In this document: one piece after another, positions 31,282-57,200 of the stretch
Position numbering within the stretch: the stretch's first letter is position 1
Layout: each line of letters starts with the position of its first letter
From: Candidatus Methanoperedens sp.
GTDB lineage: Archaea; Halobacteriota; Methanosarcinia; Methanosarcinales; Methanoperedenaceae
NCBI GenBank assembly: GCA_012026795.1
Contig: VEPM01000001.1
Span: 62,001-126,000 of the forward strand
Reading direction: 5' to 3'
DNA length: 64,000 nt
Translations under genes and position numbers: made by a program
The notes under the pieces: model-generated
Database searches by the model: none
What the model was told of the DNA's origin: nothing
The model's input: only the letters and a program-made list of their open reading frames with translations

Positions 31282-31951
31282 ATAATTTCATACCTATTGG
31301 ACTTAAAACGTAAACCATAATAAGGATAAACAGGAGCAATGAACCTTTTTTTACCAGGTCTGTTAATCCGAGATAAAATGCGGCAATATTGAACACAAGG
31401 ACTATTACCAGGGGTGCAAGGGTAAGGGGATTTTTTATTTTGGGATAACTTACGGTGCTTACCATCAACAGTGATAAAATAACAAGAAGTGCCAAAAAAG
31501 CATATTCAAAATAAGGAACAATATCCTTTACCATGATAAATAATGCTACTATGAATCCACCTGCTGTTATGGGAATTCCTTCAAATCCATCCTTTTTACC
31601 TGAAACGTTGAACCTGGCAAGACGCAATGTGCCGCAAACCATGAAAAAAGCAGGAAAAACCAGCGCGAAATTTCCAAGATTTGAAAGAACAGTGTATGAA
31701 ACAACCGCTGGCGCAACCCCGAACGAGATAACATCGGATAATGAATCAAGATTCGCGCCAAGAACACCGGTCCCGAAATACCTTGCCACCGCACCATCAG
31801 CGCCATCTGCTATTACTGCAAGAAGTATCATTATGAGCGCGATTTCCATCTCTCCGCGCAGGGTCATTATTATTGAGAACAATCCCAGTAACGCATTTAC
31901 AAGAGTAATGATATCTGCCGGTTTAATGAGTTTCAGGATATTTTGTCCCAT
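31265..31951 (-). CDS. pssA: archaetidylserine synthase (CDP-alcohol phosphatidyltransferase)
   Basis: 228 residues with about 7-8 membrane helices. The CDP-alcohol phosphotransferase motif is complete: DGADGAVARYFG followed by GANLDSLSDVISFG (Asp-Gly-x2-Ala-Arg-x8-Gly-x3-Asp-x3-Asp, with one extra residue pair). It joins serine to CDP-archaeol. ATG 31951 is preceded by AAAGGAAACAGGC; a longer frame to 32032 overlaps asd and adds a polar segment unlike the family. Product substrate assignment follows from the neighbouring decarboxylase. Confidence 0.88.
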   Translation of the reverse strand: MGQNILKLIKPADIITLVNALLGLFSIIMTLRGEMEIALIMILLAVIADGADGAVARYFGTGVLGANLDSLSDVISFGVAPAVVSYTVLSNLGNFALVFPAFFMVCGTLRLARFNVSGKKDGFEGIPITAGGFIVALFIMVKDIVPYFEYAFLALLVILSLLMVSTVSYPKIKNPLTLAPLVIVLVFNIAAFYLGLTDLVKKGSLLLFILIMVYVLSPIGMKLYDRNK

Positions 31952-31997
31952 GCCTGTTTCCTTTTTAGAATATTTTGCCTTATATCTGTTTCCTTCT

Positions 31998-32645
31998 CTA
32001 TATCTTATGTTCTTTATCTTTTTTCCTAGCAATTATAGTCTCGGCAGCTTTTACCTTATCATTCAGCCCGACTGTAAAAACATACCCTTCCGGTATCGTG
32101 ACATCCACCCTGGAACCAAAACGTATCATTCCGATACGCTCCCCCCTCAACACATAAGTCCCTTCGCTTATGTATGAAACTATCCTCCGCGTCAGGACAC
32201 CTGCGATTTGTGTTAGTTCAAGAGTCCCTGCTGCCGTACTAAATACAACATGGTTCCTTTCATTTACATCGGAATCCTTGTTAAATGCCGGGATATAACC
32301 TCCGGGCTTATAATCGATATGGGTGACTGTACCGGAAAGCGGTGCACGGTTCACATGGACATTATGGATATTCATAAAAATACAGACGGTCCTGTTCTGG
32401 ATAGATATCACCTTTCCATCAGCAGGCGACACTATATCATCTTCATCTCCGGGCGGTGTTCTCTCCGGGTCGCGAAAGAATATAATGAAAAAAATTGAGA
32501 GGATAAACCCTATAACAAATAACAAAAATAAGATCGCTGATATCCCAAACGAGCCGGATATTTTAAATTTATTAAAAGCAACCAAGGACGCGATAGTAAA
32601 AAGAAAAATTCCCAGAATCCATGGGAACGAACCTTTAGCCATCAT
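31998..32645 (-). CDS. asd: archaetidylserine decarboxylase proenzyme
   Basis: About 215 residues. Two membrane helices at the N-terminus are followed by the decarboxylase domain: FRDPERTPP, SPADGKVISI, FMNIHNVHVNRAP and MIRFGSRVDV, in which the Gly-Ser pair is the self-cleavage site that yields the pyruvoyl group. It converts archaetidylserine to archaetidylethanolamine. I chose ATG 32645, with GGAGG 11 bases upstream. It overlaps artA by 11 bases and precedes pssA by 46. The trio artA-asd-pssA on one strand is a functional neighbourhood. Confidence 0.9.
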   Translation of the reverse strand: MMAKGSFPWILGIFLFTIASLVAFNKFKISGSFGISAILFLLFVIGFILSIFFIIFFRDPERTPPGDEDDIVSPADGKVISIQNRTVCIFMNIHNVHVNRAPLSGTVTHIDYKPGGYIPAFNKDSDVNERNHVVFSTAAGTLELTQIAGVLTRRIVSYISEGTYVLRGERIGMIRFGSRVDVTIPEGYVFTVGLNDKVKAAETIIARKKDKEHKI

Positions 32646-33450
32646 TCTTAAAAATTCCTCCCACAAGGTTCAGGACGCCATCGATCATATCGATTATCTC
32701 CGGAAGGATTTTAAGGACAGCATAAGCTACCAGGAATAATGCGATCAATGAACCTATTTTTGCTATTACGGTGTGTGCGATATAAAAACTCATTTCCGGA
32801 TCGCCAAACCACATCATCCCGTAAGCATCAACTACAAAAACGTTTCTTATAAGATTTAAACCATATATTACGGGAACTGAGATAATGAAAGCCGGAGCCA
32901 GCCTCTTTATCGGGGCGTTGGCACTTGCTATTATCCCGATAAATAATGCTATACTTTCAATAGCCGTACATGCAAGGATTATTTCCACTTTATAGCCATT
33001 CACTGCTATCAGGTTCCAGTCAAGCCTTGTTATCGTTATTCCAAGGATCGATCCGGTCCATACGGTCTGGTCAGTGACTGTCGAGATTATCCATGAATTC
33101 ATTGAAGGGATCCCGGAGAAGAGAAAATAAGAAATACCACTAATTGCGACAGCTGTGGTCATCATAGAAATAGAGGCCAGTGTGTCTATCCCATTTATTT
33201 TACCAAACAATCTCCTGTCCTTTTTTATCATAAGATAACCTATGAAAATGCTGAAAAACGCTGCAAAGATCGTCAGGGATACATTGACGTAATCTTCCAG
33301 TTCATAATAATGCTGCCACTGGAAAATCCAGTGTATTGAAAAAAACAGCCAGCTTACTCCTGCAAGAGGAAGTTTGATCTTATTATGAAGCGGTATAAGC
33401 GAAGCTATAATAAGCAATCCAAGCGCCAGCCAGATTATACTTTCTATCAT
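32635..33450 (-). CDS. artA: archaeosortase A
   Basis: 271 residues with about eight membrane helices. The three archaeosortase catalytic residues are visible in order: Cys in ILACTAIESIAL (about residue 160), Arg in GLNLIRNVFVV (about 203), and His in YIAHTVIAKIGS (about 225). ArtA cleaves PGF-CTERM signals of surface proteins and passes them to a lipid anchor. In Haloferax, ArtA processing depends on PssA and PssD, and here artA sits directly in front of asd and pssA. No PGF-CTERM substrate is present in the window. Confidence 0.9.
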   Translation of the reverse strand: MIESIIWLALGLLIIASLIPLHNKIKLPLAGVSWLFFSIHWIFQWQHYYELEDYVNVSLTIFAAFFSIFIGYLMIKKDRRLFGKINGIDTLASISMMTTAVAISGISYFLFSGIPSMNSWIISTVTDQTVWTGSILGITITRLDWNLIAVNGYKVEIILACTAIESIALFIGIIASANAPIKRLAPAFIISVPVIYGLNLIRNVFVVDAYGMMWFGDPEMSFYIAHTVIAKIGSLIALFLVAYAVLKILPEIIDMIDGVLNLVGGIFKNDG

Positions 33451-39083: not shown

Positions 39084-40172
39084 TCAATAACTTAATATTT
39101 CTCGTAACGTTTCTGAAATCGCATCCATGTCAGCCCTGGTGACGGATGGATGAACAGGCAAAGAAATGACTTCTTCGGAAGCTTTTTCCGAGACAGGAAG
39201 AGAATCGCTGTATCCCAGGTCTTTATAAAGCGGTTGTTTATGAATGGGCAATGGGTAATATATTCCTGTTCCGATCCCTCTTTCATTCAACAACGATACG
39301 ATTTCATCCCTGTTAAAAGCATTATTTATTCTTACGGTAAACTGGTGGAATATATGTTTGCAGCGCCTATCAACACAGGGAAGGCTTATTCCTTTAGTAT
39401 TATCCAATGATTTTGATAAATATTGTGCGTTCCTTATCCTTGAATCATTGAACCCGTCAACTTTCTTTAACTGGACTAAACCAATAGCTGCTGCAATATC
39501 TGTCATGCGAAGATTATATCCTAACATTTCGTGGTAATATCGCTGTCTTGAACCGTGTGACCGTATCATTTTCGCTTTTTCTGCTATGGTTTTATCGTTC
39601 GTTGTAATTATCCCGCCTTCACCTGTGGTCATATTCTTTGTGGGGTAAAAGCTAAAAGTGCCTGTTCCGAATGAACCTGCTTTTTTCCCTTCAAAGGTTG
39701 CGCCATGTGCCTGGCAGGCATCCTCTATAATTACGAGATCATTATCCTGTGCAATTTCCATTATGCTTTTCATATCTGCTGACTGCCCATACAGATGAAC
39801 GGGAATAATGGCTTTTGTTCTGGGGGTTATTTTCTCTGTGATCCTCTCAGGGTCAATGTTAAAAGTGTCTTCTTTTATATCTGCAAAAACGGGTTTTGCG
39901 CCTGTAAATAAAACTGAATTTGATGTAGCTGCGAAGGTAAAAGGGGGAGTTATGACTTCGTCCCCATTCCCGATTCCATGAGCCAGCAGTGCAGTGTGCA
40001 GTGCAGCAGTCCCGGAATTCACTGCAACGGCATGGGAAGTTCCGACATAATCAGCAAAATTTGATTCAAAATCCTTAACTTTCTGGCCTTCTGCAATTAC
40101 ACCTGATCTCATTACCTCAACAACTGCGCTTATTTCTTCTTCACCGATTATGGGTTTTGCTATGGGGATCAT
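39084..40172 (-). CDS. DegT/DnrJ/EryC1 sugar aminotransferase
   Basis: 362 residues of the PLP-dependent sugar aminotransferase family: start IPIAKPIIGEEEISAVVEV, VNSGTAALHTALLAHGIG, IEDACQAHGA (Asp that binds the PLP nitrogen), SFYPTKNMTTGEGG with the Schiff-base Lys, and RMTDIAAAIGLVQL. It transfers an amino group to a keto-sugar nucleotide for surface glycan synthesis. Last gene of the run GPT-like transferase, acyltransferase, aminotransferase on the minus strand; 6 bases from the acyltransferase gene. Confidence 0.92.
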   Translation of the reverse strand: MIPIAKPIIGEEEISAVVEVMRSGVIAEGQKVKDFESNFADYVGTSHAVAVNSGTAALHTALLAHGIGNGDEVITPPFTFAATSNSVLFTGAKPVFADIKEDTFNIDPERITEKITPRTKAIIPVHLYGQSADMKSIMEIAQDNDLVIIEDACQAHGATFEGKKAGSFGTGTFSFYPTKNMTTGEGGIITTNDKTIAEKAKMIRSHGSRQRYYHEMLGYNLRMTDIAAAIGLVQLKKVDGFNDSRIRNAQYLSKSLDNTKGISLPCVDRRCKHIFHQFTVRINNAFNRDEIVSLLNERGIGTGIYYPLPIHKQPLYKDLGYSDSLPVSEKASEEVISLPVHPSVTRADMDAISETLREILSY

Positions 40173-40178
40173 AAATAT

Positions 40179-40844
40179 CTAAATATTATTTAAGATTTTT
40201 AATTCTTCTGGTAGTTCTTTAAACCTGGCTGGAAAACCTATCGCCAGTTTCCATGGAGGCACATCCTTTGTGACAAGTGCGCCTGCTGCGACCATTGCAC
40301 CTGTGCCTACTTCAATTCCCGGTAAAATGGTGGAATTTGCTCCAAGGGAAGCGCCTTCTCGAAGTATCGGCCCTTTCAGGCCGGATTCAGTCCTTATCGG
40401 GTATTTATCATTTGAAAGCACAGCGCAGGGTCCAATGAAAACATGGTCTTCAATAACAACATTCAGGGGGATGTACACATTTCCCTGGATACTGACATTA
40501 TTTCCAATAATAGTCCGCCCGTCAAGAATTGTATTTGTACCAATAAGCACATCGTTACCGATTCTCGTCTCTTCGCGTACCATGACATTGTGTCCTGTCC
40601 GGAAGTTATTCCCGATCTCAACATCAGAATATATAGTCGAATTTGACCTTATTACAGCATTATCCCCGATATGGGCGCCTTTGAAGGGCATGTTTTTAAT
40701 ATTGGTATCTAAATCAGGCCCTGAAGATGCGGCAATTTTCAGGAGATTGGCTGTGGGATGTCCAATAATGACCCCATCGCCAATTATCGCGTTCTTTCCG
40801 ATAGAGCTTTCCCCGTATATTTTAACACTTCCCGATCTTATCAT
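40179..40844 (-). CDS. left-handed beta-helix (hexapeptide) sugar acyltransferase
   Basis: 221 residues made of hexapeptide repeats of the I-G-x-x-x-x type from residue 10 to about 200 ([39 protein letters not shown] and so on), interrupted by a loop [17 protein letters not shown] that resembles the WbpD/WlbB N-acetyltransferases acting on UDP-2,3-diamino sugars. With the aminotransferase beside it this fits synthesis of an acetamido sugar: amino transfer followed by N-acetylation. Substrate is inferred from the pairing. Confidence 0.88.
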
Positions 40845-40850
40845 AGATTG

Positions 40851-41816
40851 TTATCCCGGGATTATAATCCCGATAATGCTAAAAACCGCAGTGACTGCAT
40901 ACATGGCGTAAGTAGCCTGCTTTTCGTTCACTCTTTTATAGTATGGTAGTACCCATTTTAATGTCAGGTTATTAGGTACTTCAAGTGTGCCATCCTCTCT
41001 GACTTTCCCGAACTTGACCTGCGGATACTTCCTGGCGCGCCAGTAAACATACATCAGGAAATTAATTGTATGGGGCAAGAGCATGATAAAACCGCTGACA
41101 ATAAAGCCCTGCATCACTATCAGAACGCCAATTGCAGACCCGACTGTAAGTGAGCCCACATTTCCCCAGAATATCCGTGATGGATACCGTTCAAACAGGA
41201 AGAACCCGAATGTTGCACCTGCTATGGCTATTATTGAAAAAATCGAAATGATATTATCAAATGACCCGTTTATGATGGATTTTGTTATCAGGGAAACAAG
41301 GATAATGACTGAAAGTCCTGAAGACATGCCATTAAATCCTGAATGCATATTCACAAGGTTTGCTGTCACAAGCACAAAAGTCGGGACAATCAACTGGCTA
41401 TAGAAGATCCCGAGCTCCACATTTCCAACAAACGGGACCGCGATCAGGGAACGGGTCGCATAATGCATCAAAGGATATGAACAATAATACATAAGAACAA
41501 GTTTGGCGGGTCTCCCAATATCTATCATATCATCAAGGATACCAAACAGGCCAAATAGAAGTATTACATTTAATAGTACATAATTTACAGCATCAAAATT
41601 ATAGAAAATTGAATTGATTGACATTGAGAAAAGGACAGCAAGCATAATTGCAATTCCGCCACCTGTCGGAACCATCTGGCTACCCTTCTTATAGTAGTCT
41701 TTTACGACCAGTCCCCTTTTAGTTAGTTTTCGTATGAGATAAGGTGTGGTAGCTAATATGATAAAGAAAGGAAACAGGAATACCAGACTTATTTCAAGAA
41801 TTTGATAGAAATTCAT
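40851..41816 (-). CDS. UDP-GlcNAc-1-phosphate transferase-like membrane glycosyltransferase (GPT/MraY family)
   Basis: About 321 residues from ATG 41816, with 9-10 membrane helices. Family landmarks: LTKRGLVVKDYYKKGSQMVPTGGG, the Asp pair in GILDDMIDIG, NLVNMHSGFNGMSSG and FWGNVGSLTVGSAIG (matching the FxGDxGS element with Asn for Asp). It loads the first sugar phosphate on dolichyl phosphate at the cytoplasmic membrane. The frame extends to 41885, but the extra 23 residues are polar and lie on top of the PEF-CTERM gene end. It opens the glycan run. Confidence 0.83.
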   Translation of the reverse strand: MNFYQILEISLVFLFPFFIILATTPYLIRKLTKRGLVVKDYYKKGSQMVPTGGGIAIMLAVLFSMSINSIFYNFDAVNYVLLNVILLFGLFGILDDMIDIGRPAKLVLMYYCSYPLMHYATRSLIAVPFVGNVELGIFYSQLIVPTFVLVTANLVNMHSGFNGMSSGLSVIILVSLITKSIINGSFDNIISIFSIIAIAGATFGFFLFERYPSRIFWGNVGSLTVGSAIGVLIVMQGFIVSGFIMLLPHTINFLMYVYWRARKYPQVKFGKVREDGTLEVPNNLTLKWVLPYYKRVNEKQATYAMYAVTAVFSIIGIIIPG

Positions 41817-41844
41817 ACATTGGCTTGTAAATGAGGGTAATAAA

Positions 41845-42363
41845 TTATTCTTCTTTGTCTTTCCTGTGCTGGAGTAAGAATACAAGGCCGATAATTGCTG
41901 CTACCGGCAGGGCTACAGTAGGAAATTCAGGGGTGGGTGTTATCTGGACTCTTATTACTGAATCCGCATCAAAAGGATCCGGATTACCAACCCAGAAAAC
42001 CTTATATTTCAATAGATAATTGTTATTTGATTCCAATTTATTATTATAAGTTACAATAAAAGTTGCCGGGCTTTTCCAGCCCAGCGGATTTGAATTTTCT
42101 ATCTCTGATCCGTTATGTGTAACCCCATCGGGATCCTTGATTGAGATTATAAATTTATCTGCAGGATTAAACCCGACCCCATCAATTATAAATTTGGAAA
42201 TAGCAGGCCCATCAGATGTTATATTTACGGTCTGGCTTTTACCTTCATTTACATTTAATGAAATCGGATTGGGATTTGCATCTATACCAGCAGCCAATGC
42301 AATCCCTGTCATCGTTATCATCGCCCCGATTAACGTCGTAATCGTTATAAATTTATTCATCAT
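41845..42363 (-). CDS. PEF-CTERM sorting-domain surface protein
   Basis: 172 residues with a signal peptide (about 1-24, cleavage near ALAA), an extracellular beta domain with Asn-x-Ser/Thr sequons (NITS), and a C-terminal tripartite sorting signal: TPTPEFPTVALP, a hydrophobic helix AAIIGLVFLL and the basic tail QHRKDKEE. The Pro-Glu-Phe motif defines PEF-CTERM, the substrate class of archaeosortase C, which is encoded 4 kb away (46058-46894). ATG 42363 and 42360 are both possible starts. Confidence 0.9.
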   Translation of the reverse strand: MMNKFITITTLIGAMITMTGIALAAGIDANPNPISLNVNEGKSQTVNITSDGPAISKFIIDGVGFNPADKFIISIKDPDGVTHNGSEIENSNPLGWKSPATFIVTYNNKLESNNNYLLKYKVFWVGNPDPFDADSVIRVQITPTPEFPTVALPVAAIIGLVFLLQHRKDKEE

Positions 42364-42607
42364 GTTATTTTAATCACTCTTATATACATATTTATGTACA
42401 TTCTAACTCATAAGCCACCATAGCCGTTGAGTAAATTAGTTAATTATACCATTCTAATCAATATATATGTATCTCTCTTAATAGATAAAAAATCATCGTT
42501 ATACTCATAATCATAATTTAATGTGGATATTTTACTTGTTCAATAGCATATCATGTTTTCTATCCAATACCAAGGTTAATTAATAATAAGCTAAATGGAA
42601 TTGTATA

Positions 42608-43129
42608 ATGAAAAAAAATTGTTATAAAAATACGAATATCGAATTTAAAGCTTTACTGATACTGTCTGTCCTGTATGCCATGTTAATTTTTTACCTTTCT
42701 TCCAGATCAAGTTTTGATAACATAGGATCTATTTCAGGTTTGTTAAATATTGAATTTATAAGAAACATATTTTATTATTTTTCAAACTCTGATTTAAACT
42801 TCTTTTTGTTCCCATTTTATATATTCTATAAGCAGCCGGATAAGCTGGCGCATTTAATTCTGTATGCGGGATTTGGAATTTTGTTATATAACACATTAAA
42901 GAACTCTCATGACCCAACATTACATAACCATGCCCTACTGTTTGCGATAATTATTGGAACAATATATGGTGCAAGTGACGAAATCCACCAATCATTTGTC
43001 CCTGGTAGAACAGCAAGTTTTTGGGATTTGGCTGCAGATATCACAGGAGTGATCATGGCGCAAACAGTAATCTTTATAAAAGATAAATTATGTATAAGAA
43101 ACAGGATTTTTTCTATATCAACTAAATAA
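42608..43129 (+). CDS. VanZ family membrane protein
   Basis: 173 residues with about four membrane helices and the VanZ motif set: YKQPDKLAHLILYAGFGILLY and GASDEIHQSFVPGRTASFWDLAADITGV (quoted parts DKLAHLILYAGFG and DEIHQSFVPGRTASFWD). VanZ proteins of bacteria confer teicoplanin resistance, and archaeal members are often found in exosortase/archaeosortase and polysaccharide loci. It is followed after 11 bases by the DUF1616 gene and is probably co-transcribed. Confidence 0.9.
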   Translation: MKKNCYKNTNIEFKALLILSVLYAMLIFYLSSRSSFDNIGSISGLLNIEFIRNIFYYFSNSDLNFFLFPFYIFYKQPDKLAHLILYAGFGILLYNTLKNSHDPTLHNHALLFAIIIGTIYGASDEIHQSFVPGRTASFWDLAADITGVIMAQTVIFIKDKLCIRNRIFSISTK

Positions 43130-43140
43130 GGCATAGCTAA

Positions 43141-46065
43141 ATGAAAGAAAACAGGACAATTGAAAACCTTAACAACCGATTAATTAATAATCTGGATTTA
43201 GTTTTTATCCCGATACTTGTCATTTTAGCTATAATCTTCGTCCTGATACCTTTTTTTAACCAGGGATTACTGAGAATTATCTTTGCGTTACCTTTGATAT
43301 TCTTCCTTCCCGGGTACCTGCTTATTGCAGCAATGTTCCCAAAGCGCGGGGAATTAAGTTCAATTGAAAGATTTACATTTAGCATCGTCTTTAGCATAAC
43401 AATAATTGTTTTTGACGGATTTGGCCTTAACTATACCCGGTGGGGTTTTAAGTCCGATTCGATAACATTAAGTTTATCTTTGATTATCGGGATTCTTTTC
43501 TTATTAACATTTATCCAGAGATGGAGATATGGAAAAGAAAGTTATAGTTTTACCATTTCGGATATAAGATCTTTTTATCATATCCTCAAAAATAAAGATC
43601 CCGAAACCGGGCCTGATCATACTCTTGAAAAGATGCTGATCAAAACAATGATAATATCCATACTTATTGTCAGTGCAATGATGATCTATGCAAAAGTGAC
43701 TACCGAACCTGAGAAATTTACATCTCTTTATATCCTTGGCTCAGATGGAAAAGCTGAGAACTATCTGACTGAAGTCAGCATTGGCGAACCTTATTCAATA
43801 TTGGTAGGAGTAGAAAATTATGAATATGCACCTGTAAATTTTACGCTCAGGGTGAGTTTCGGAGGAAAATATCTGAAAGAATATCCTGTTATTCTGGATC
43901 ACAATAGTAAATGGCTAAACAATGTCACATTTGTACCTGAACTGGTATCTTTTATAGCGCGTGGGGATAAAACAAAATTGGGGTTCGAACTATTTAGAGA
44001 CAATAAATCTTACAGGGAAGTCCATCTTATGGTTAACGTCAACCCGGATTCAGTCAAATTCTCAGAACTTCCCGACCTCATTAACGGCGATATGGAATCA
44101 GATAAGGGCTGGTTGTTTTCCGGAAGCAGTCCTGATATCAAAGGTAGCTATATAAATGAAACAATCTCCTCCAGAGTTTATGAAATAAGCTATAGCTCAA
44201 AAAATCCTGGTTCCTCTGGAATCATATATCAGGATCTAACGACCCGGGGGGATGTACTGGCAATGCTTTCATTTGATGTCATGGATTCGGAGTATTCAAA
44301 TACATCATCAATTGCATTCAAACAGGCATTACTTGACGGACAGGTCATATGGGAAACAAGGATCGGGGATAATAATAACACCTGGGCACATATTGAAGTG
44401 CCGGTACTGTTGTCGGGGAAGAATACTCTTGCATTTCGGGTTTACAGTAATTCAACCGATGATCTGGAAAGAACTGTCCTGTGGGATAATATAAAATTAA
44501 AACTTTTTAAAGGCGGATTGCCTCGATTAGGAGATACTCTGGAAAGGAAGGGTCTGGCAGTTAAGTTATATAATTTTTCGAACACTGAAAATTTCTCTTC
44601 ATTAAATTTTATAATTGAAAATACAGGAAAAATAGAGAAAAATGTGAGTTTAAAACCAGCTCCTGTCATAATCGATGATCTTGACAATCAATATGAGATG
44701 TTAGGAATCGGATTGAATGACCGGGTAAAAATATCGCCAGTTTATCCCGGAGTCTTAAAGAAAGGAACGATAAGTTTCAGGCCGGTAAATAATAGTGCAA
44801 AAGATCTCAGGATAATCCTATATCTGAATGGGGAGAAGTACGAATTCAACTATCATGTCGAACCGAAAATACTAGGCGAGGATGGGGATACATCTGATAA
44901 CATAAATGCAACTATGGGAGATATAATTACTAAAAATGGATTTGAGGTCATGTTAAATGGCTTTCAAAACGCACCTGGAGTGACTTCCCAGGTCAGTATT
45001 TCTGTCAAGAACATAGAAAGTGAAGAGAAACCATTTAAATTAAATCCATCTGCGATGCTGATCGATGATCTTGGCAACCAGTATGGGATGGTTATAATCC
45101 AGAGAAGCGGCCAGATAAAACAGACCACTGTTTATTCCGGGGCAATAAGAAGAGGTATTATATTTTTCAAGCCAATAAATCCTGATGCAAAAGATCTCAA
45201 GTTGATTCTATATTTAAATGAAAATAAATATGAATTCAATTTCAAAGCACAAGCAATAACATTGGAAGAAAAGGGTTTTTCCAATAATATTTCAAAAGAA
45301 ATAAATGCTGGTCCGGGAGATACGATCACTCAGGATGGATTTGCTTTGATGTTAAAAGGATTTCAAAACACTCCTGGTTGGTATTCCCAGGTTGATATTG
45401 CTGTCAAAAATATGGAAAATGAAAGAAAGCAATTTTACCTATCTCCGATAATTATTGATGATCTGGGCAACCAATACGAGGGCATTAATATCCAGAGAAG
45501 CACCCAGATAAAATTATCCCCCATATATCCCGGGGTTGTAAGGAGAGGTTCTATGTTTTTTGAAGAAATAGATCCTGATGCAAAAGACCTCAGGGTGATT
45601 ATGTATTTGAACGGGAAGATGTACAAATTTGGCTTAAAGGCCGAATCAAAAGTATTGGGCGATAGTGATCTTCAAGGCGATATATCGGCCTATTTTCCGA
45701 TTAATGCTACTATGGGAGAAGCACTCACCCGGGGTGGATTAGAAATAAAACTAAAAAGCTTTCAAAATACTCCTGGCTGGAATTCCCAGGTTTTTATTGA
45801 AGCCAGGAATATTGAAAATGAAGACAAACAATTCAAATATAATTTGTCTCCGGTACTCATCGATGATCTTGGCAATCAATATGAAATGGTTAATATCAAA
45901 AGGAACAATAAGATAGAACAAACTACTATAGCCCCACTTGCCCGGATAGAAGGTGCAATACTTTTTGAGCCGATAAAGGCAGAAGCAAAATATATTATAT
46001 TTGTTTTGCCCATTTCTTCAGATAAATATATATTTGGTTTTGAACAGAAGAATACTTTCATTTAA
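43141..46065 (+). CDS. DUF1616 membrane protein with four extracellular beta repeats
   Basis: 974 residues. The N-terminal about 200 residues are the DUF1616 domain: membrane helices around IIFALPLIFFLPGYLLIAAMFP (quoted part FFLPGYLLIAAMFP) and YTRWGFKSD. A jelly-roll-like domain follows (about 310-455). The last about 500 residues contain four copies of a DUF4352/TRF2-like beta domain of about 125 residues, each with IIDDLGNQYE or a variant (about residues 516, 641, 772 and 912), preceded by GFQNTPGWxSQV and followed by DAKDLRxILYLNGxKYEF. It is exposed to the outside. DUF1616 proteins often accompany archaeosortase genes, but their role is unknown. Confidence 0.85.
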   Translation: MKENRTIENLNNRLINNLDLVFIPILVILAIIFVLIPFFNQGLLRIIFALPLIFFLPGYLLIAAMFPKRGELSSIERFTFSIVFSITIIVFDGFGLNYTRWGFKSDSITLSLSLIIGILFLLTFIQRWRYGKESYSFTISDIRSFYHILKNKDPETGPDHTLEKMLIKTMIISILIVSAMMIYAKVTTEPEKFTSLYILGSDGKAENYLTEVSIGEPYSILVGVENYEYAPVNFTLRVSFGGKYLKEYPVILDHNSKWLNNVTFVPELVSFIARGDKTKLGFELFRDNKSYREVHLMVNVNPDSVKFSELPDLINGDMESDKGWLFSGSSPDIKGSYINETISSRVYEISYSSKNPGSSGIIYQDLTTRGDVLAMLSFDVMDSEYSNTSSIAFKQALLDGQVIWETRIGDNNNTWAHIEVPVLLSGKNTLAFRVYSNSTDDLERTVLWDNIKLKLFKGGLPRLGDTLERKGLAVKLYNFSNTENFSSLNFIIENTGKIEKNVSLKPAPVIIDDLDNQYEMLGIGLNDRVKISPVYPGVLKKGTISFRPVNNSAKDLRIILYLNGEKYEFNYHVEPKILGEDGDTSDNINATMGDIITKNGFEVMLNGFQNAPGVTSQVSISVKNIESEEKPFKLNPSAMLIDDLGNQYGMVIIQRSGQIKQTTVYSGAIRRGIIFFKPINPDAKDLKLILYLNENKYEFNFKAQAITLEEKGFSNNISKEINAGPGDTITQDGFALMLKGFQNTPGWYSQVDIAVKNMENERKQFYLSPIIIDDLGNQYEGINIQRSTQIKLSPIYPGVVRRGSMFFEEIDPDAKDLRVIMYLNGKMYKFGLKAESKVLGDSDLQGDISAYFPINATMGEALTRGGLEIKLKSFQNTPGWNSQVFIEARNIENEDKQFKYNLSPVLIDDLGNQYEMVNIKRNNKIEQTTIAPLARIEGAILFEPIKAEAKYIIFVLPISSDKYIFGFEQKNTFI

Positions 46066-46894
46066 TCCGGTTCAATGCCATCATTATTCCAAAACTGATT
46101 ATTATGAAAATAAACCATCCGATGTATACATGGACAAACATCATTTTTTCAATGCCATAATAATAACCAATAATATATAATATTGAAACCCTTATCAAAT
46201 TAGAAAAGTAAGAAATGATTACAGCTAAAAATATCAATAAATAGATCTTTTTATTTTCAGTGATATGTTCTATCTTAACATATCCCACAATAATGCCTAA
46301 AAGCAGCATCATTGAATAGAGGCCAGAGCAGGGTCCGCCTATTACAACGGTAGCATCTTCAAAACCATTGAAATGAACGGTCTCAATCCCGACAATATGC
46401 AGGTCAATATTCGTTAAAGAGGTTGCAATGAAAAGAGAGGGGAGCAGTACAAAATAATGGTCAAAATCATGAATGAAATCATTTTTTAGAGATGGTAATA
46501 TTACATAGAACAAAAGGAATAATAGAATAAATGTTCCGGACATGTATATTCCGAATTCGCCCGTCTGCCTGTACTTGCCTGCACCATAAACGATAAAAGA
46601 TATGCCCATAAAAAGAGCCATGGAATCAAGAGTACCGAGCTGATTCATGGCCTTTAGATTATATAAGATATCGGCAAATAATATAAATATTCCAAGCACA
46701 ATGCAAGATTTTGAGCTTTTTGTTATGTATGCGCCCTGAAGCTTAAACTGTGTTGTAAGTCCCAGACTAATGAGAAACATTAGGATTCCTATCGGGATGG
46801 AGCCTTCACTGAATTGAATTGTTGCGCCTGTGAAAAAAGCCAGTACAAGTAGAACTACCAGGACATTATGTTTTTGCGTATTAATAATCTTCAC
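46058..46894 (-). CDS. artC: archaeosortase C (PEF-CTERM type)
   Basis: 278 residues with about nine membrane helices. Catalytic Cys in VVIGGPCSGLYSMMLLLG (quoted GGPCSGLYSM, about residue 189), Arg in FSNLIRVSILYIIG (about 234) and His in FVHVYIGWFIFI (about 254) match the exosortase/archaeosortase mechanism. The PCSGLYSM context is that of the PEF-CTERM-specific archaeosortase C. It is convergent with the DUF1616 gene (8-base overlap) and shares the locus with a PEF-CTERM protein. Confidence 0.88.
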   Translation of the reverse strand: MKIINTQKHNVLVVLLVLAFFTGATIQFSEGSIPIGILMFLISLGLTTQFKLQGAYITKSSKSCIVLGIFILFADILYNLKAMNQLGTLDSMALFMGISFIVYGAGKYRQTGEFGIYMSGTFILLFLLFYVILPSLKNDFIHDFDHYFVLLPSLFIATSLTNIDLHIVGIETVHFNGFEDATVVIGGPCSGLYSMMLLLGIIVGYVKIEHITENKKIYLLIFLAVIISYFSNLIRVSILYIIGYYYGIEKMMFVHVYIGWFIFIIISFGIMMALNRIK

Positions 46895-47021
46895 CAGTGA
46901 TCATATTATATAAGGATAAGCTATATATAATCTCGGGATTAATTTAACTGTAAGAAAAATAAGTGTTGGAAGCATCAATCATGTTTTTGAAAAATCAGAA
47001 CAGGAAGCTATCGGAATTTTC

Positions 47022-47831
47022 ATGAGCACTTTGAAAAGAATTTCATTGTTTATATTTCTCATAATTTTTCCATTGATAGTGGGAATACTTATTGATAGGG
47101 CCAGGGTACTGATCGGGGTTTTTATTTTACTGGTTATTATTGTATGGTTTATAATAATCAATGCAAACAAATTCATATTGCTTCTTTATAAGGCACGACC
47201 AGCTCTTTTGGCAGACCTGCCCGGGATCCAGGAAAAGGTCCGGATACTTTCAGCAAAATATGGTGTGACTGCGCCGTCCATCTATATGACCGGGGCAGGA
47301 CTTCCGGGCAGTTTTATTATTGGCAATGATATGCACAGGACCATTATTGTTGTTCCAACAAGGTTATCGACCCTATTAAATAGTGATGAAATTGAAGCAG
47401 TGCTTGCACATAATATAGTGCAGATAGATAATAATATTCAAAAAAGGACCATTGTTGCCCTGATAACTGCAATCATGACCATGCCTTCCATGGCAATTCG
47501 CTGGGGGGCGGCATTTACAGGATTTGGTGATTATGATGACCCTGCGCCGAAGCTATTCGGATTATTTATAATGGGGCTAACTGCGCCTCCTGCCGCAGCC
47601 CTTATTCAATCATTATCAGAAGAAGATTATGACACAAAGGCCATAACCCTTTCAAAGAATTCTGAGGCATTTATTTGTGCGATCAAGCGTCTTGAGTCTG
47701 ATAATGTCACAGGTTATTCATCTCTGGGCTTCCTTTGTCTTGTTGATCCGCAAAAGGAAACATTTTTCGAATATCTATTCAATGTTCATTCTTCCCAGGA
47801 AATACGGGCACAGAAATTGAGGAGAAAATAA
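47022..47831 (+). CDS. M48-like peptidase homologue lacking the HExxH motif
   Basis: 269 residues, two N-terminal membrane helices and a domain of M48 (HtpX-like) order: PALLADLPGIQEKVRILSAKYGV, IYMTGAGLPGSFIIGN, then LNSDEIEAVLAHNIVQIDN, where M48 proteases have LSxxELxAVLAHExxHxxN. The zinc-binding and catalytic HExxH has become HNIVQ. The third ligand region reads SEEDYDTKAI in place of ExxAD. It should therefore not be a protease; a pseudoenzyme that binds sortase substrates or partners is one possibility. It starts 41 bases after a tiny ORF and is followed by a small membrane protein gene. Confidence 0.8.
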   Translation: MSTLKRISLFIFLIIFPLIVGILIDRARVLIGVFILLVIIVWFIIINANKFILLLYKARPALLADLPGIQEKVRILSAKYGVTAPSIYMTGAGLPGSFIIGNDMHRTIIVVPTRLSTLLNSDEIEAVLAHNIVQIDNNIQKRTIVALITAIMTMPSMAIRWGAAFTGFGDYDDPAPKLFGLFIMGLTAPPAAALIQSLSEEDYDTKAITLSKNSEAFICAIKRLESDNVTGYSSLGFLCLVDPQKETFFEYLFNVHSSQEIRAQKLRRK

Positions 47832-47832
47832 T

Positions 47833-48063
47833 ATGATCGAGCTACACTTTGATCTAAAATTTAGAATGAAGACCTGGAAGAAAGCACTGGCGTTCAGTTT
47901 TCTTTTTTATCTGATCATATTGTCCATATTTATTATCATATTAACTTTTACATTAAAAGATTTTAACTATAAAGTAATATTTATGTACTTTGCATCCGGC
48001 ATGACTTTGTTGATACTGGGCTTTCTTCAGATGTTCAGGATATTCAAAGCCAGATTCGTTTAA
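47833..48063 (+). CDS. small two-helix membrane protein
   Basis: 76 residues with two membrane helices (about 20-41 and 47-66). It begins one base after the stop of the M48-like gene, so the two are translated together. No family is recognised; a partner of the inactive M48-like protein is likely from position. Confidence 0.65.
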   Translation: MIELHFDLKFRMKTWKKALAFSFLFYLIILSIFIIILTFTLKDFNYKVIFMYFASGMTLLILGFLQMFRIFKARFV

Positions 48064-48236: not shown

Positions 48237-51200
48237 ATGTTCGAAAAAATAGGAAGGAAATCAATATTATTGTTAGGATTTTTAATTTTAGCTGCAGTTA
48301 TATTTATTTCTGTATCAGCAAGCGGAGATTCGGCCACAGTGACCGGAGTATCATCGACCACAGCCAACGGGACCTATACAACAGGCCAGACAATAGCGAT
48401 AACCGTAACCTTCAGTGAACCAGTAAACGTGACCGGTTATCCGGAAATCCAGCTTGAGACAGGCACAACCGATCAACAGGCCATATATTCCAGTGGCAAT
48501 GGCACTGATACACTTATCTTCAACTATACCGTCCAGGCAGGAGATGCCTCAAACGAACTTGATTATGTCGCAATAGGCTCACTCACAACAAATGGCGGAA
48601 CGATCCGGAATAGTTCGGGCATCGATGCGATTCTCATTTTGCCCGCCCCGGGTACACCAGGTTCGCTGGGTGCAAACACTGATTTTGTGATAGATGCGAT
48701 AGCACCCACAGTTGAACTTATATCAGGAACAACCAGCCCGACCAACAGCCTGATCCTGGTAACTGCAACCTTCAATGAACCAGTTACAGGCTTTGATCCG
48801 GCAGATATTTCAGTGACCAACGGTAGTGTAGAGAACTTTGGCGGGTCAGGAACAACCTATACCTTTGATGTAAATCCAACCGACGGTGCAGGCATCACGG
48901 TAACGATCGGTATTCCGGCCGGTGTTGCCCGGGACGCAGCAACCAACAACAATACGGCCTCAAATACTCTGTCATATACCTCAGATACAGTTTCCCCGGC
49001 AGTAATTCTTTCCTCCCCATCCCTGAATCCAACTAACGGCCTGATTTCAGTAACTGCAACGTTTAGCGAATCTGTCACGGGCTTTAATTCAACAGATCTT
49101 TTAGTGACCAACGGTACTGTAGGGAACTTTGGCGGATCAGGAACAACATATACCTTTGATGTAAATCCAACCGACGGTGCAGGTGTAATAGTAACTGTTA
49201 ACGTGCCAGCAGGATCAGCCGGGGATACAGCAGGCAACACCAATACAGCCTCAAATACGCTATCATATACCTCAGATACAGTATCTCCGACATTAGTTCT
49301 TTCTTCTTCAACCCCGAATCCAACCAACGGCCTTATCTCAGTAACCGCAACGTTCAGTGAATCAGTTACAGGATTCATATCAACAGACGTCACAGTATCA
49401 AACGGTACTGTAGGTGACTTTACAGGCTCAGGAGCAATTTACACTTTTAACGTGACTCCAACTGGCGGGGCAAACATTTCAGTAGCAATCAACGTTCCAG
49501 CCGGTGTGGCCCAGGATGCAGCAACCAACAGCAATACCGCATCCAATACACTGACATATACATCGAATACAGTTGCACCCTCAGTAACACTTACCTCCTC
49601 AACCCTTAATCCAACCAGCGGTTTGATCTCAGTAATTGCAACCTTCAGTGAATCAGTTACAGGATTCGCATCAGGAGATGTCACAGTTACAAATGGTACA
49701 GTAGAGAACTTTAGTGGATCAGGAACAACCTATACCTTTAACGCAAATCCAACCGACGGTGCAGATGTAATAGTAACGATCAAGGTTCCAACCGGCTCAG
49801 CCCAGGATACAGCAGGGAATGGCAATACCGCATCCAATACACTGACATTTACTTCAGATACTGTGGCACCTGCAGTAACAACAGTCTCCTCTACCGCAGC
49901 CAATGGAACATTCAGCATGGGCCAGGCTATCGCTGTCACAGTGAAATTCACTGAATCGGTAACAGTAACCGGTACACCACATATCCAGCTTGAAACAGGC
50001 ACAACAGACAGGCAGGCCATCTATTCCAGCGGTTCAGGAACCAATACTCTAACCTTCAATTATGATGTCCAGCCAGAAGATGTTTCAAGCGATCTGGATT
50101 ATGTTTCTACCGCCGCGCTCACCCTGAACGGAGGAACAATCAATGACAGTGCCAACAACACTGCCGTCCTGACTCTTGCCTCCCCCGGCACAGCAGGATC
50201 ACTGGGTGCGAATAAGGCAATCGTTATCTATACAACGTCTGTTATCTCGGATGATTTCAGTGCCGGGGAACTGGACACCGGGCTGTGGACCATTGTTGAT
50301 CCGCGAAATGATTCAACTATTTCGGTAACAGGGACAGGTACTAAGAATGCGTCATTATCCATTCTGGTTCCCGATACGTCACAGCATGAATTTAAGATCG
50401 GGAACTATGATGCCCCACGAGTTATGCAAAGAGCAAATAACAAGGATTTTGAGATCGAGGTCAAATTCCAGTCAGAAATGACATCAGTGAACCAGATGGA
50501 AGGGGTAATTGTCCAGCAGGACAATAATAAATCAATCAGGTTTAATTTTGAACGAGATTATTTCAATACAAATATAATGTCATTTACTTTTGATAACCAG
50601 TCATTTGAATTGAAGTCGACGACTTCGATCAGTGGCTCTCCTGTTCCTCTTTTCATGCGGATTAAAAGGACAGGCGACCAGTGGACAATGAACTATTCCA
50701 CAGATGGCATGAACTGGACTACAGGCGCTTCATTCTCGTATGTATTGAAAGTGGCATCTATTGGACCCTTTGTTGGGCAAAGCGGTTCAGGCTACTTCCC
50801 ACCTGCATATACAGGTAAAATCGATTATTTCTTCAATACGGAATCAATAATAGTTCCTGAAGATCCGACGAAATTCAACCTGACAGGCTATAAGATCAAC
50901 GCCAGCGATGGCAGCGGGTTACCTGGCTGGAACATTACATTGACCAATAGCTCGATCCAGACAAATAAGTTAACAGGACCGGATGGTTCCTATGAATTCA
51001 AGGATCTTGTTGAAGGTACATACACGGTATTTGAAGAACAGCGACCAGGATGGACGAATGTTTCACCCGTGTCCGTGGAGATCAAAGGTATAGACCGGGA
51101 CATACGTCAGAATTTCACAAACCTGCCAAGAGTTTATACCTACAAGCTCTCAGGTTACAAGATCAATGCCAGTGACAATACCGGACTCCAGGGCTGGAAC

Positions 51201-54200
51201 ATCACGATAACCAATGGCTCGGCAACAATAAAAACAGCAACTGATAATACAGGTTATTATGAATTCAAAGACCTTGTAAATGGTACATACAATGTAACCG
51301 AAGAAGAACTACCGGATTGGATAAATGTCACGTCCCTGACCCAGGAAGTCACTATCGATGGCAAGGATAACCTGAGTGTGAATTTCACGAACAGGCCAAG
51401 AGTTTATACCTACAGGCTCTCAGGTTACATCATCAGTGCCAATGACAACACCGGACTCCAGGGCTGGAACATCACAGTAACTAACGGTTCAGCAACAATA
51501 AAAACAACAACTAATAATACAGGTTATTATGAATTCACAGACCTTTTGAATGGTACTTACACCATATCCGAAGAACTCAAGCCGGAATGGTTAAATGTCA
51601 CTCCATTATCCCTGGATCGCACCATCCTGGGCAGCAATGTACAGAACGTTAACTTCATGAATAAACCCCTTGAAATTATCTCAGATGATTTCAGTGATGA
51701 AACGCTCAACACATCGCTCTGGACATTTATCAATCCAAGAAATGATGCAACCCTTACCATGGTGGGTTCAGGTACCAAAGATGCATTGTTAAACATCTCG
51801 ATCCCTTCGGGTTTAGATCATGATGTCTGGAATGGAAATAATGCTCCGAGAATCATGCAGGATGCTCCTGATAAGGATTTTGAGATCGAGATCAAGTTGC
51901 AGTCAATCTTGAACAGGAAATACCAGAGCGAGGGTATTATAGTAGAGCAGGACAGCCTTAATTATATCAGGTTTGATTTTGAAAGTGACGGGACTTATAC
52001 AAAAATATTCGCAGCCACTTTTGCTAATGGTGCAGGGACACCAAAGTCAATGATTATAATTAATAGCAGTTCATCAAGTCCGGTTAATCTGGCCATGCGT
52101 GTGAAAAGGGTGGGCAACCAGTGGTCAATGAACTATTCAAGAGATGGTATAAACTGGAACCCGGGTCTTAATTTTGTTCATGCACTGAAAGTGACATCAG
52201 TAGGGCTCTTTGTAGGCAATGCCGGATTCCCGGCGCCTGCACATACCGGTCTTATAGATTATTTCTTCAATACCAACTCTCCAATAGCACCTGAAGATCC
52301 ATCAAAATACAGCGTTTCAGGTTATATTATTAATGCAAGCGATGGCAGGGGAATCCCGGGATGGAATGTTACATTGAAGAGTGACGCGATACAAACAACG
52401 GTCTTGACTAATGATACAGGATTCTATAATTTCCCGTACCTTTTAAATGGTTCGTACACTATATCTGAAGAACTGCAACCGGAATGGGTCAATCTTACTC
52501 CATTATCCCGGGAAATCATAATTGACGGCCAGAGTGTAACAAACTTTAACTTTACAAATAAACCTCTTGTTATTATTTCGGATGATTTTAGCTCTCCATC
52601 ACTTAAATCTGCGCTATGGACAGTTATCAATCCGTTAGGTGATTCAACAATTTCCATAACAGGTACAGGCACTAAAAATGCATCATTATCCATTTCGGTT
52701 CCCGATACATCACAGCATGAGTTCAAGGATGGCAACCTCAATGCACCACGGGTCATGCAGAATGCAAGTAACAAGGATTTTGAGATAGAGGTCAAATTCC
52801 AGTCTCAGATGACAACAATGAATCAGATGGAAGGAGTAATTATCCAGCAGGATAATAATAAATCAATCAGGTTTAATTTTGAACAGGATTTATTGAATAC
52901 AAATGTAATAGCGCTCACCAATGACAACGAATCATTTGAAGTAAAATCGACGACTTCGATCAGTGGCTCTCCTGCTCCTCTTTACATGCGGATCAAAAGA
53001 ACAGGCGACCAGTGGACAATGAACTATTCTACGGATGGTATGAACTGGACTACAGGCGCTTCATTCTCGTATGTATTAAAAGTGACATCTGTTGGACCCT
53101 TTGTGGGACAATCAGGCTTACCATACTTCCCGCCTGCATATACAGGTAAAATCGATTATTTCTTCAATACGGAATCAATAATAGTTCCTGAAGATCCAAC
53201 GAAATTCAACTTGACAGGCTATAAGATCAATGCCAGCGATGGCAGCGGGATCCCTGGCTGGAACATCACAATAACTAATGGCTCAATCCAGGCAAATAAG
53301 TTCACGGGACCGGATGGTTCCTATGAATTCAAGGATCTTGTTGAAGGTACATACACAGTATTTGAAGAGCAGCGGTCAGGATGGACGAATGTTTCACCCA
53401 GGTCCTGGGAAATCAAAGGTATAGACCAGGACATATTTAAGAATTTCACGAACCGGCCAACCATTAATACTTACAAACTCTCAGGTTACAAGATCAATGC
53501 CAGTGACAATACCGGAATTAAAGGCTGGAACATCACACTAACTAATGGCTCAGCAACAATAAAAACATCAACTGACGTAATGGGTTACTACGAATTCACC
53601 GACCTTTTAAATGGTACATACAATGTTACTGAAGAAGAACTACCAGACTGGGTAAATGTCACCCCCCTGACCCAGAAAATCACTATCGATGGCAAGGATA
53701 ATCTGAGCGTGAACTTCAGGAACCAGCCAAGAGTTTATACCTACAAGCTCTCAGGTTACACGATCAATGCTATTGACAATACCGGACTCCAGGGCTGGAA
53801 CATCACGATAACCAATGGCTCGGCAACAATAAAAACAATAACCAATAATGCGGGTTATTATGAATTCACAGACCTTTTGAATGGTACTTACACCATATCC
53901 GAAGAACTCAAGCCGGAATGGTTGAATGTCACTTCGTTATCCCTGGGTCGCACGATACTGGGCAGCAATGTACAGAACGTTAACTTCATGAATAAACCTC
54001 TTGAAATTGTCTCTGATGATTTCAGTGATGGAACGTTTAACACATCGCTCTGGACATTTATCAATCCAAGAAATGACGCAACCCTTGCTATGACAGGTCC
54101 GGGTACCAAAGATGCATTGTTAAAGATCTCGTTCCCTTCGGGTTTAGATCATGATATCTGGTATGGAAATAATGCTCCGAGGATCATGCAGAACGCTCCT

Positions 54201-57200
54201 GATAAGGACTTTGAGATTGAGATCAAATTCCAGTCAGTCTTGAACAAGACGTACCAGAGTGAGGGCGTTATCATACAGCAGGACAGCAAAAATTTCATCA
54301 GGTTTGACTTTGAAAGTGATGTGACTAATTTAAAAATATTTGCAGCTACTTTTGCTAATGGTGCAGGAACACCCAAGACCATGTATATTATTAACAAGAG
54401 TTCTCCAAACCCGATTAATCTGACCATGCGTGTGAAAAGGGCAGGAAACCAGTGGATGATGAACTATTCAAAAGACGGATCCAACTGGACAGCGGGTTAC
54501 AATTTCGCATATATATTGAAGGTGACATCAGTAGGAGCCTTTATAGGCAATGCTGGAACCCCGGCACCTGCACATATCGGTTATATAGATTATTTCTTCA
54601 ATACGAAATCTCCGCTCATCCCTGAAGACCCCCCGTTGCCAGGTACAAAATTCAATATATCAGGTTTCAAGATCAATGCCAGCAATAACGCTGGCCTGTC
54701 TGGCTGGAATATCACTATATCGAATTCCACTATGCTGATTAGCACATTAACTGGTATTGACGGTTCCTACAAGTTTACGAACATCACAAAAGGCACATAT
54801 ACGGTTAGTGAAGAAATTAAACCCGAATGGGTAAATGTCACTCCGCTCTCACTGGAGATCATAGTTAATTATGATGACATTTACAATGTAAATTTCACTA
54901 ACAAACCAATAGTTCGTACCTACAACCTTTCAGGATACAAGATCAATGCCAGTGACAATACTGGTATTGCCGGCTGGAACATCACGATAACCAATGGCTC
55001 AACGCCAATAAGAACATCAACTAATAGTACAGGTTATTATGAATTCAAAGACCTTGTAAATGGTACATACAATGTAACCGAAGAAGTAAGACCCGGATGG
55101 AGGAATATCACTTCCCTGACCCAGGAGATCACTATCGATGGCAGGGATAATCTGAGCGTGAACTTCAGGAACCAGCCAATAATTTATACATATAATGTAT
55201 CGGGTTATAAGATCAATGGAGACGCTGGAACTGGAATTTCTGGCTGGAATATCTCAATATCCAATGGATCGATGACAATAAACACATCAACTGATAACGA
55301 GGGCTTCTACAAGTTTATAAATCTTATAAATGGCACCTACAATGTAACTGAAGAAAATCGTAAAGGCTGGAAGAATCTCACAGATTCAACCCGCAAGATA
55401 ACGATTTCAGGCGGAGATATCTTAAACCAGAACTTCGTAAATAAACCACTGGGTATCGTATCGGATGATTTCAGCAATCCAAACCAGGATCCTTCGCTAT
55501 GGACAAAGATCGATCCGCAAAATGATTCGTCATTCAGGATTGATGGCATCGGTACATCTGATGTATTATTTAACATTACCATACCTGCGGGTAAAGAGCA
55601 TAATCCCTGGACAACGAATAATGCTACAAGGATAATGCAGTATGTCAATATCAATGATTTTGAAGTCGAGGTTATGTTCAAATCCGTGATAAACAAGGCT
55701 TCCCAGACGCAGGGGATCATCGTCGAGCAGGATGAACGCAACTACATTCGATTTGATTTCTTCAACTCTGGTAATAATAATATAACTATATTTGCAGCTA
55801 ATTTCAATAATGGATCTGCATTTAATAGAGTGAGCAGGCCCATTGGTGCGGTTCAGAATGGCGCTCCTCTATACATGCGTGTAAAACGGGTAGGAGACAA
55901 CTGGACACAAAAATATTCCTTTGACGGCACAAACTGGAATAGTACGGTTCCAGCAAGTTTCAATGTTCCGTTAACTGTGACTGCCATAGGTCCGTTTATT
56001 GCGAATACGGGAACTAATCCGGCTTTCACCGGTCTTATTGATTATTTCTTCAATGTCGATTCGCCTGTTGTCCCTGAAGACGCATTAAGATCCAATGTAT
56101 CCGGATTCAATATCGAGGATAATAACGAAAATGGCATATGGGATGCAGGTGAAACAGGGATACCTGATTGGAATATATCCCTATTCAATAATAACACCGG
56201 TGTAGAGATCGCCAGTATAAAGACCGATCCTTCAGGTAAATATGCATTCCATAACCTCGTAAATGGAACATATAAAGTAAAGGAAGAAACAAAGGACGGG
56301 TACTTTGCAACGAACAGCACATCGGTTGTGTTCACCGTAGCAGGCAAAGATATAGATAATATCAACTTCACAAATTCCGCTGCGAAGCAATTGAATATTT
56401 CCGGGTTCGTAATAGAGGATAAGAACAACAATGGTATCTGGGATGTCGGTGAACCGGGTATATCAAACTGGAATATCTACCTTTTAAATAATACAACAGG
56501 GTCAATGATAAACAGCACCAAGACAGATTCTTCAGGTCGATATGTATTCCGTGATCTTTTAAGGGGCACATATACAGTAACAGAAGAAACAAAGCCTGGG
56601 TACATTGCCAGCAACAACACATCCGTTGTGATCTCTATTTCAAACAAAGACGTAAACAACCTGAACTTTACAAATTACCTGCCGCAAAATGCACCCGGCA
56701 TCACCACACAACCGGTCGATATGAGTGTAAAATTGAAGAAGACAGCAACCTTCAATGTAGTAGCTACAGGAACAAATCCCCTCTCATACCAGTGGAAGAA
56801 GAATGGTGTGAACATTGGTACGAACAGTCCGTCCTACACAACCCCGGCAACAACAATGGCAGATAACGGAGCTGTTTACAGCGTTACAGTAACAAATTCC
56901 CTGGGAACGGCTACCAGTAATTCATCAAAGCTTACAGTCAGGAACATCATTTCTGATGATTTCAATGTCTTCCCCCTGGATACCTCGAACTGGACGTCCA
57001 TCAATCCACTGGGTGATGCGACAATTACCATAACAGGCGCAGGTTCAGGAAATGCATCGTTGAGTATCAACGTACCTGGTGGTACTACACACGATGCATG
57101 GACAACGAACAATGCCCCGCGTGTAATGCAGACCGCAGACAACACGGATTTCCAGATCGAGGCGAAATTCGAGTCTGTAATGACGTCGGCGACACAGATA

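Follow-up and report, generated by a model that had tools for sequence, protein, structure and literature searches.

The PEF-CTERM/archaeosortase C (ArtC) system, reportedly described in Haft 2012, is the known system closest to the locus analysed here, which occupies positions 41845-48063 of a 64,000-nucleotide stretch (the window; G000:C1:62001-126000) of a Candidatus Methanoperedens genome (G000; 3.59 Mb, 99.98% complete). As in that system, ArtC and a PEF-CTERM protein, each above the cut-off of its model, lie in one locus. They are joined by a VanZ family protein, a long DUF1616 protein (D1616L), an M48-like protein (M48L) and a small protein with two predicted hydrophobic helices (sTM), a set for which the literature searched yielded no description, an earlier mention in Haft 2012 being possible. 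We therefore read the locus as a known kind with an accessory module that is apparently undescribed. Four gene families are now strongly linked to one archaeosortase, with gene fusions backing the linkage, which bears on how exosortases and archaeosortases attach proteins to the surface and on what such enzymes require besides themselves.

For a different archaeosortase, ArtA, synteny of artA with pssA and pssD was confirmed by mutants, and ArtA depends on PssA and PssD, which are head-group enzymes (PMC7157517). The ArtC locus resembles this PGF-CTERM system in joining an archaeosortase, through synteny, to partners that act or are predicted to act on lipids; it differs in enzyme and tag, and its partners are VanZ, D1616L, M48L and sTM rather than PssA and PssD. 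Four bacterial proteins carry an EpsH-like domain joined to a CAAX protease-like one (PMC1569441). Like bacterial EpsH/XrtA PEP-CTERM loci, the ArtC locus sets a sortase-like enzyme amid glycan genes and pairs it with a probable CAAX-type membrane protease fold, but ArtC is not XrtA (TIGR03109 26.1 bits, cut-off 208), and whereas the bacterial fusions use PF02517 (type II CAAX), M48L probably has the type I (Ste24/HtpX) fold and is unfused to ArtC. Myxosortase, the CPBP protease by which MYXO-CTERM tags are cut (PMC11980579), likewise places a CAAX-type membrane protease in the processing of C-terminal tags; there, however, the protease is the sorting enzyme itself, whereas the ArtC locus has an archaeosortase, and its protease relative is often apparently dead and probably of another fold.

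The gene content of 41845-48063 was established from the listing of open reading frames (ORFs), Pfam, NCBIfam and the sequence. The five genes that an earlier, sequence-only reading had named and placed were all confirmed; its title lacked the sixth, sTM, which closes the range. Lengths are in amino acids (aa).

41845..42363, minus strand: PEF-CTERM protein, 172 aa, putative ArtC substrate (TIGR03024 29.3 bits, cut-off 23)
42608..43129, plus strand: VanZ family membrane protein, 173 aa (PF04892 49.5 bits, cut-off 30.1)
43141..46065, plus strand: D1616L, 974 aa, long DUF1616 protein (PF07760 191 bits over residues 25-299, cut-off 31.6)
46058..46894, minus strand: ArtC, 278 aa (TIGR03762 239.9 bits, cut-off 100)
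47022..47831, plus strand: M48L, 269 aa, HtpX/Ste24-type, zinc site absent (PF01435 19.3 bits, cut-off 20.3)
47833..48063, plus strand: sTM, 76 aa, two predicted hydrophobic helices, the sixth gene

By model score and conserved residues the window ArtC is archaeosortase C, with cleavage of PEF-CTERM proteins as its predicted activity. The conserved Cys, Arg and His of an archaeosortase are its catalytic residues, and Cys189, Arg235 and His255 are invariant in 25 of 25 aligned ArtC sequences; the window protein is 90% identical to ArtC of Candidatus Methanoperedens sp. BLZ2. The putative substrate ends in a PEF motif, a hydrophobic stretch and a basic tail, its TIGR03024 match falling on residues 145-168 of 172. 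VanZ lies 11 bp upstream of D1616L and 1 bp separates M48L from sTM, while D1616L and ArtC converge with an 8-bp overlap and ArtC diverges from M48L. Against HtpX models the window M48L scores at most 71 bits, below their cut-offs, and sTM has no match in Pfam or NCBIfam at E 0.001.

Comparison across genomes suggests that the locus probably consists of ArtC, one of its substrates and a conserved accessory module, made up of the linked pairs VanZ/D1616L and M48L/sTM, that acts with PEF sorting. An ArtC-like protein (TIGR03762, E up to 1e-15) was found in 64 of the 185 genomes of the order. Loci scoring above 200 bits are termed canonical (60 loci in 59 genomes of 14 genera) and the 11 lower-scoring loci divergent; up to 20 kb around each locus was taken, and all ORFs were clustered blind to the hypothesis. 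After ArtC itself, the most recurrent clusters were the PEF-CTERM family (48 genomes, 10 genera), the long DUF1616 proteins (59, 13) and M48L (54, 13), with sTM in 34 genomes of 8 genera (fused copies left out) and VanZ in 15 genomes of 5 genera; these counts take in extra loci chosen for partner matches, of which L079 and L105-L113, taken for matches on other contigs, stand outside the adjacency counts that follow. Within 10 kb of canonical ArtC lay D1616L at 48 of 60 loci (11 genera), M48L, sTM and PEF-CTERM genes at 45 each (10 genera each) and VanZ at 16 (5 genera), D1616L matches below 400 aa being disregarded except in L089, where the gene is cut by the contig. D1616L, M48L and sTM all occur in the stretch around ArtC at 46 of the 60 canonical loci, rising to 34 of the 38 where the contig extends 5 kb or more to either side and 29 of the 33 where it extends 10 kb, since most missing partners are due to contig ends. 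The association with ArtC in these methane-metabolising archaea is far more than chance, although the genomes are related and the counts not independent, and its most tightly linked unit is M48L plus sTM.

The 11 divergent loci are different: D1616L and M48L each occur at one, sTM at none, VanZ at three and PEF-CTERM genes at two. The idea that M48L accompanies any ArtC-like protein was rejected on these loci, where the single exception (L051), an HtpX-like protein, sits on a long branch. In one genome (G062; L053 3243-11328), VanZ, D1616L and PEF-CTERM genes adjoin a tandem pair of exosortase-family genes that are very divergent, scoring 68.6 and 34.5 bits against the ArtC model; M48L and sTM are missing there. 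In most Methanosarcinaceae, ArtC has as its neighbour, in divergent orientation, a gene for a protein family of about 265 aa (L102 8512-9300 and relatives) that is without a match in Pfam at E 1 or in NCBIfam at E 0.001.

Presence and absence across the order tell the same story as adjacency. D1616L is present in 59 of 59 canonical-ArtC genomes and in 8 of 126 others, so the recurrence that the sequence-only reading had staked itself on extends well beyond the source genome; for sTM the figures are 56 of 59 and 6 of 126. (Presence of D1616L was taken from profile match rows, with G032 added from its locus; chance values for co-occurrence and for the VanZ distances given below ignore relatedness, and no p-value is used.) The joint pattern of D1616L, sTM and ArtC repeats inside several genera. 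PEF-CTERM matches occur in 58 of the 59 canonical-ArtC genomes, and also in 34 genomes without canonical ArtC, of which only 7 have D1616L or sTM; the module therefore tracks the enzyme and not the tag. The persistence of tagged proteins where canonical ArtC is absent tells against a strict pairing of ArtC with PEF-CTERM, so in those genomes either the tagged proteins have outlasted the enzyme or they are handled by a different sortase. G120, G125, G127 and G138, among these 34, each have several PEF-CTERM matches.

Fusions bind the accessory families to one another. M48L and sTM form one reading frame at 18 loci, with sTM joined to the C-terminus of M48L; VanZ is fused to D1616L at six (G041, G051, G065, G055, G263, G357); and sTM is fused to VanZ at one Hydrothermarchaeota locus, in a 229-aa protein with sTM at residues 6-66 and VanZ at 100-214. 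These three combinations chain all four accessory families together. They also bear on the notion that the genes simply travel as one island, so that linkage says nothing of function: the patchy distribution of ArtC within genera is what horizontal transfer or loss would give, but gene order and strands differ between families, and the association has therefore outlasted rearrangement, which, with fusions in three combinations, makes mere hitchhiking most improbable.

Beyond the order, 392 genomes across the phylum were sampled, 54 of them with ArtC and 27 of these outside the order, comprising 13 canonical loci (families f10, f20 and f37) and 14 divergent or broken ones. M48L and sTM adjoin ArtC at 10 of the 13 canonical loci and D1616L does so at 6, the three loci without M48L or sTM being L121, L122 and L130; the full set is present in the metagenome-assembled genome named Hydrothermarchaeota. 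The 12 divergent loci of family f9 (L134-L145) have neither M48L nor sTM, and 10 of them carry VanZ with pieces matching D1616L; DUF1616 is here split between two small genes beside VanZ, which at the one locus checked by Pfam correspond to its N-terminal and its C-terminal part. At another (L136), a PIG-L-type deacetylase gene immediately precedes ArtC. Of two broken ArtC loci, L152 has M48L and sTM and L153 has none of these. In L152 and L214 a 293-aa ORF beside the frame-broken ArtC joins sTM to an unrelated soluble C-terminal part, either through an error of assembly or as a fusion of a new kind. Some ANME-1 (Methanophagales) genomes carry ArtC (L169, L175, L176, L204 and others), contrary to a 2017 review that gives ArtC as absent from the ANME-1 data it examined (PMC5244752).

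The sequence-only reading had called the M48 homologue inactive. That description fits the window protein, in which HExxH reads HNIVQ, the site columns being H, N, Q and a gap, and the third Glu is missing; it does not fit the family, and a version in which M48L is always inactive was rejected, as 31 of 77 relatives keep HExxH and the third Glu (one intact row, L051, being the HtpX-like outlier) and 46 do not. A tree from which the site columns were left out, made by a quick method and containing several long branches, needs eight state changes at the fewest, at least four of them forced by well-supported branches, placing loss of the zinc site in several M48L lineages. The ratio of non-synonymous to synonymous substitution for the window M48L against G044, G064 and G052 is 0.33, 0.24 and 0.23 (ArtC: 0.16, 0.18 and 0.14), which points to constraint on M48L despite the loss of its site. 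To judge from the site residues, then, M48L is dispensable as an enzyme, while VanZ and ArtC seem not to be.

This pattern also speaks to another possibility, that M48L-sTM is a stand-alone, HtpX-like membrane quality-control protease merely induced with surface proteins. The M48L fold, compared through the fused M48L-sTM of G079 and not through the window protein, has HtpX and Ste24 proteins as its best matches: a model of mean predicted local distance difference test score (pLDDT) 65.8, in which the sTM part is too uncertain for an interface to be read, matched an HtpX domain best in Foldseek (E 5.7e-3) and, in VIA-align, Ste24p (Z 14.1; 197 residues aligned, root-mean-square deviation 5.7) and ZMPSTE24 (Z 13.9), values barely above the level at which the tool warns of helical proteins. 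The retention of the zinc site in 31 of the 77 would likewise suit a protease of this kind. Yet where the site has gone the gene is still found next to ArtC and still evolves under constraint, and another HtpX-like protein is usually present, because all 64 genomes have a match and most have two or more; we consider a general quality-control role improbable. Repeated loss of a protease site inside a retained gene set offers a natural test of scaffold against catalytic roles.

VanZ is the most loosely placed partner, and here the proposed recurrence near artC, strong for DUF1616 and M48L, held only in a looser form: VanZ is fused to D1616L in some genomes, and in others the only VanZ match lies 17-35 kb off. 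VanZ as a strict neighbour of ArtC was rejected, with 16 of the 60 canonical loci having it within 10 kb. It shares the ArtC contig at 36 of the 60, made up of these 16, a further 18 at 17-35 kb and two far away (G090, G135). Where the contig bearing ArtC is longer than 2.5 Mb, as in 11 genomes with a single VanZ match each, VanZ falls within 40 kb of ArtC in nine, which come from few genera and are not independent. The motifs KxxH, ExxQ and DxxxD are kept in the window protein, and across 34 proteins the site residues are nearly invariant (K 33, H 34, E 34, Q 34, D 34 and D 33 of 34). VanZ has been placed in the lipocone superfamily, whose predicted targets are lipid head groups (PMC12419801), in an account that gives KxxH and DxxxD for VanZ-2 and ExxQ for Skillet/VanZ-1, so that the ArtC-locus VanZ matches it in motifs; in the available part of that paper the words sortase, exosortase, archaeosortase and PEP-CTERM are not used, and the link to a sortase is new to it.

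D1616L is built of N-terminal membrane helices with the DUF1616 domain, a jelly-roll domain and Ig-like repeats, DUF5643 matching at three stretches. Its model has a mean pLDDT of 54, is usable to about residue 455 and falls below 50 beyond about residue 556; helices run to 187, followed by a beta domain and then the jelly roll (308-461), which resembles MAM domains and carbohydrate-binding modules (Z about 12-15, the VIA rows falling on residues 308-461 only). For M48L and D1616L alike, a modelled likeness of fold does not in itself indicate function. Elsewhere in the source genome (G000:C8; L215 7971, 15231), another exosortase-family gene (TIGR04178 42.5 bits) has a stand-alone DUF1616 protein at a distance of about 6.4 kb, which may be a second DUF1616-sortase pairing.

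Several observations weigh against an accessory role of the whole module with ArtC. Three genomes that are 99-100% complete (G009, G055, G099; L114, L118, L119) keep M48L and sTM without canonical ArtC, G009 and G055 with D1616L as well, and in L118 the usual place of ArtC between M48L and D1616L is empty; six genomes in all have sTM and no canonical ArtC. Conversely, G041 keeps ArtC with D1616L-VanZ and G113 keeps ArtC with D1616L, both without M48L or sTM, in G106 ArtC and the module sit on separate contigs, and the fourth miss among the 38 well-flanked loci is a second ArtC copy in G063. The Methanophagales-like L121 and L122 have ArtC and none of the partners nearby, VanZ is often at the distances given above, and among the fusions seen at the loci examined none includes ArtC. 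Finally, the neighbourhood of ArtC is also rich in glycan genes. In the window, the module lies between a glycan-precursor run (39084..41885), found beside ArtC in G044 and G064 too, and a giant surface protein:

39084-40172, minus strand: DegT aminotransferase, glycan-precursor run
40179-40844, minus strand: hexapeptide transferase, glycan-precursor run
40851-41885, minus strand: glycosyltransferase family 4 protein, glycan-precursor run, probable start further in
48237-63227, plus strand: giant surface protein, 4996 aa, with repeated SdrD_B, SpaA, DUF1349, Big and Ig domains

The position between these two had been pointed out beforehand, and both neighbours are indeed there, but the giant protein is not a conserved one and was rejected as a module member: among the 9 genomes of the genus with canonical ArtC, only 2 have a protein longer than 2,000 aa there (4996 aa in the window, 2724 aa in G044), and inspection of the C-terminal sequence of the window protein found no PEF-type tail. 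The likeness to bacterial exosortase/exopolysaccharide loci, also proposed then, is borne out in Methanosarcinaceae, where glycosyltransferases and FemAB flank ArtC, the best match of the FemAB neighbour being TIGR03019 (44 bits, below the cut-off of 260).

Such surroundings raise the question of whether the module serves to make, export or anchor a surface glycan, sharing a cell-coat island with ArtC and PEF-CTERM proteins and taking no part in their processing. The glycosyltransferase, FemAB, DegT and hexapeptide genes that flank ArtC would fit, as would the resemblance of the D1616L jelly roll to carbohydrate-binding modules and the linkage of bacterial VanZ families to exopolysaccharide genes (PMC12419801). 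However, the glycan genes change from one family to the next and D1616L, M48L and sTM are retained, and D1616L and sTM follow ArtC nearly one to one, so that we regard a purely glycan role as rather unlikely. A role as accessory to sorting is the more likely because the predicted action of VanZ on lipid head groups, the precedent of ArtA-PssA/PssD synteny and the EpsH-CAAX fusions point the same way when taken together; a glycan role for D1616L and VanZ would be compatible with it. Association with ArtC, joint presence and absence, fusion and constraint are observed for the module, and its genes are strong candidates for unknown parts of a surface-anchoring machine. The suggestion that VanZ, DUF1616 and the M48-like protein are accessory parts of PEF-CTERM sorting thus gains support and is extended by sTM, the fusions, the repeated loss of the active site and the more distant linkage of VanZ, the sorting role itself being a prediction from genomics.

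If the module does act with PEF sorting, ArtC would cut PEF-tagged proteins at the outer face of the membrane and pass them to a lipid or lipid-glycan acceptor, which VanZ, as a predicted lipid-head-group enzyme with intact motifs, might prepare or recycle, much as PssA and PssD do for ArtA. D1616L could be a membrane-anchored outer arm holding the substrate or glycan at ArtC. The remnant helix of the cleaved substrate would stay in the membrane, and M48L with sTM may grip the substrate's membrane tail; an M48L with an intact zinc site would cut this tail up, and one that has lost the site would only bind or regulate it. That ArtC is the core of such a multi-part machine, with VanZ preparing the acceptor, D1616L presenting substrate or glycan and a pseudoprotease-prone M48L-sTM subunit capturing or clearing the PEF tail, is a tentative proposal to which we give less than even credence. 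If true, sortase-like enzymes would have been paired convergently with a CAAX-type membrane protease fold for a second time, the bacterial EpsH-CAAX fusions being the other case. As the module occurs in named strains of Methanolobus, Methanococcoides and Methanosarcina, its role is directly testable.

A second archaeosortase locus lies in the window, 13 kb from ArtC. At 31265-33450 on the minus strand, Archaeosortase A (TIGR04125 244 bits, cut-off 75) accompanies a phosphatidylserine decarboxylase and an archaetidylserine-synthase-like gene, and by its gene content this is the known ArtA-PssD-PssA cluster.

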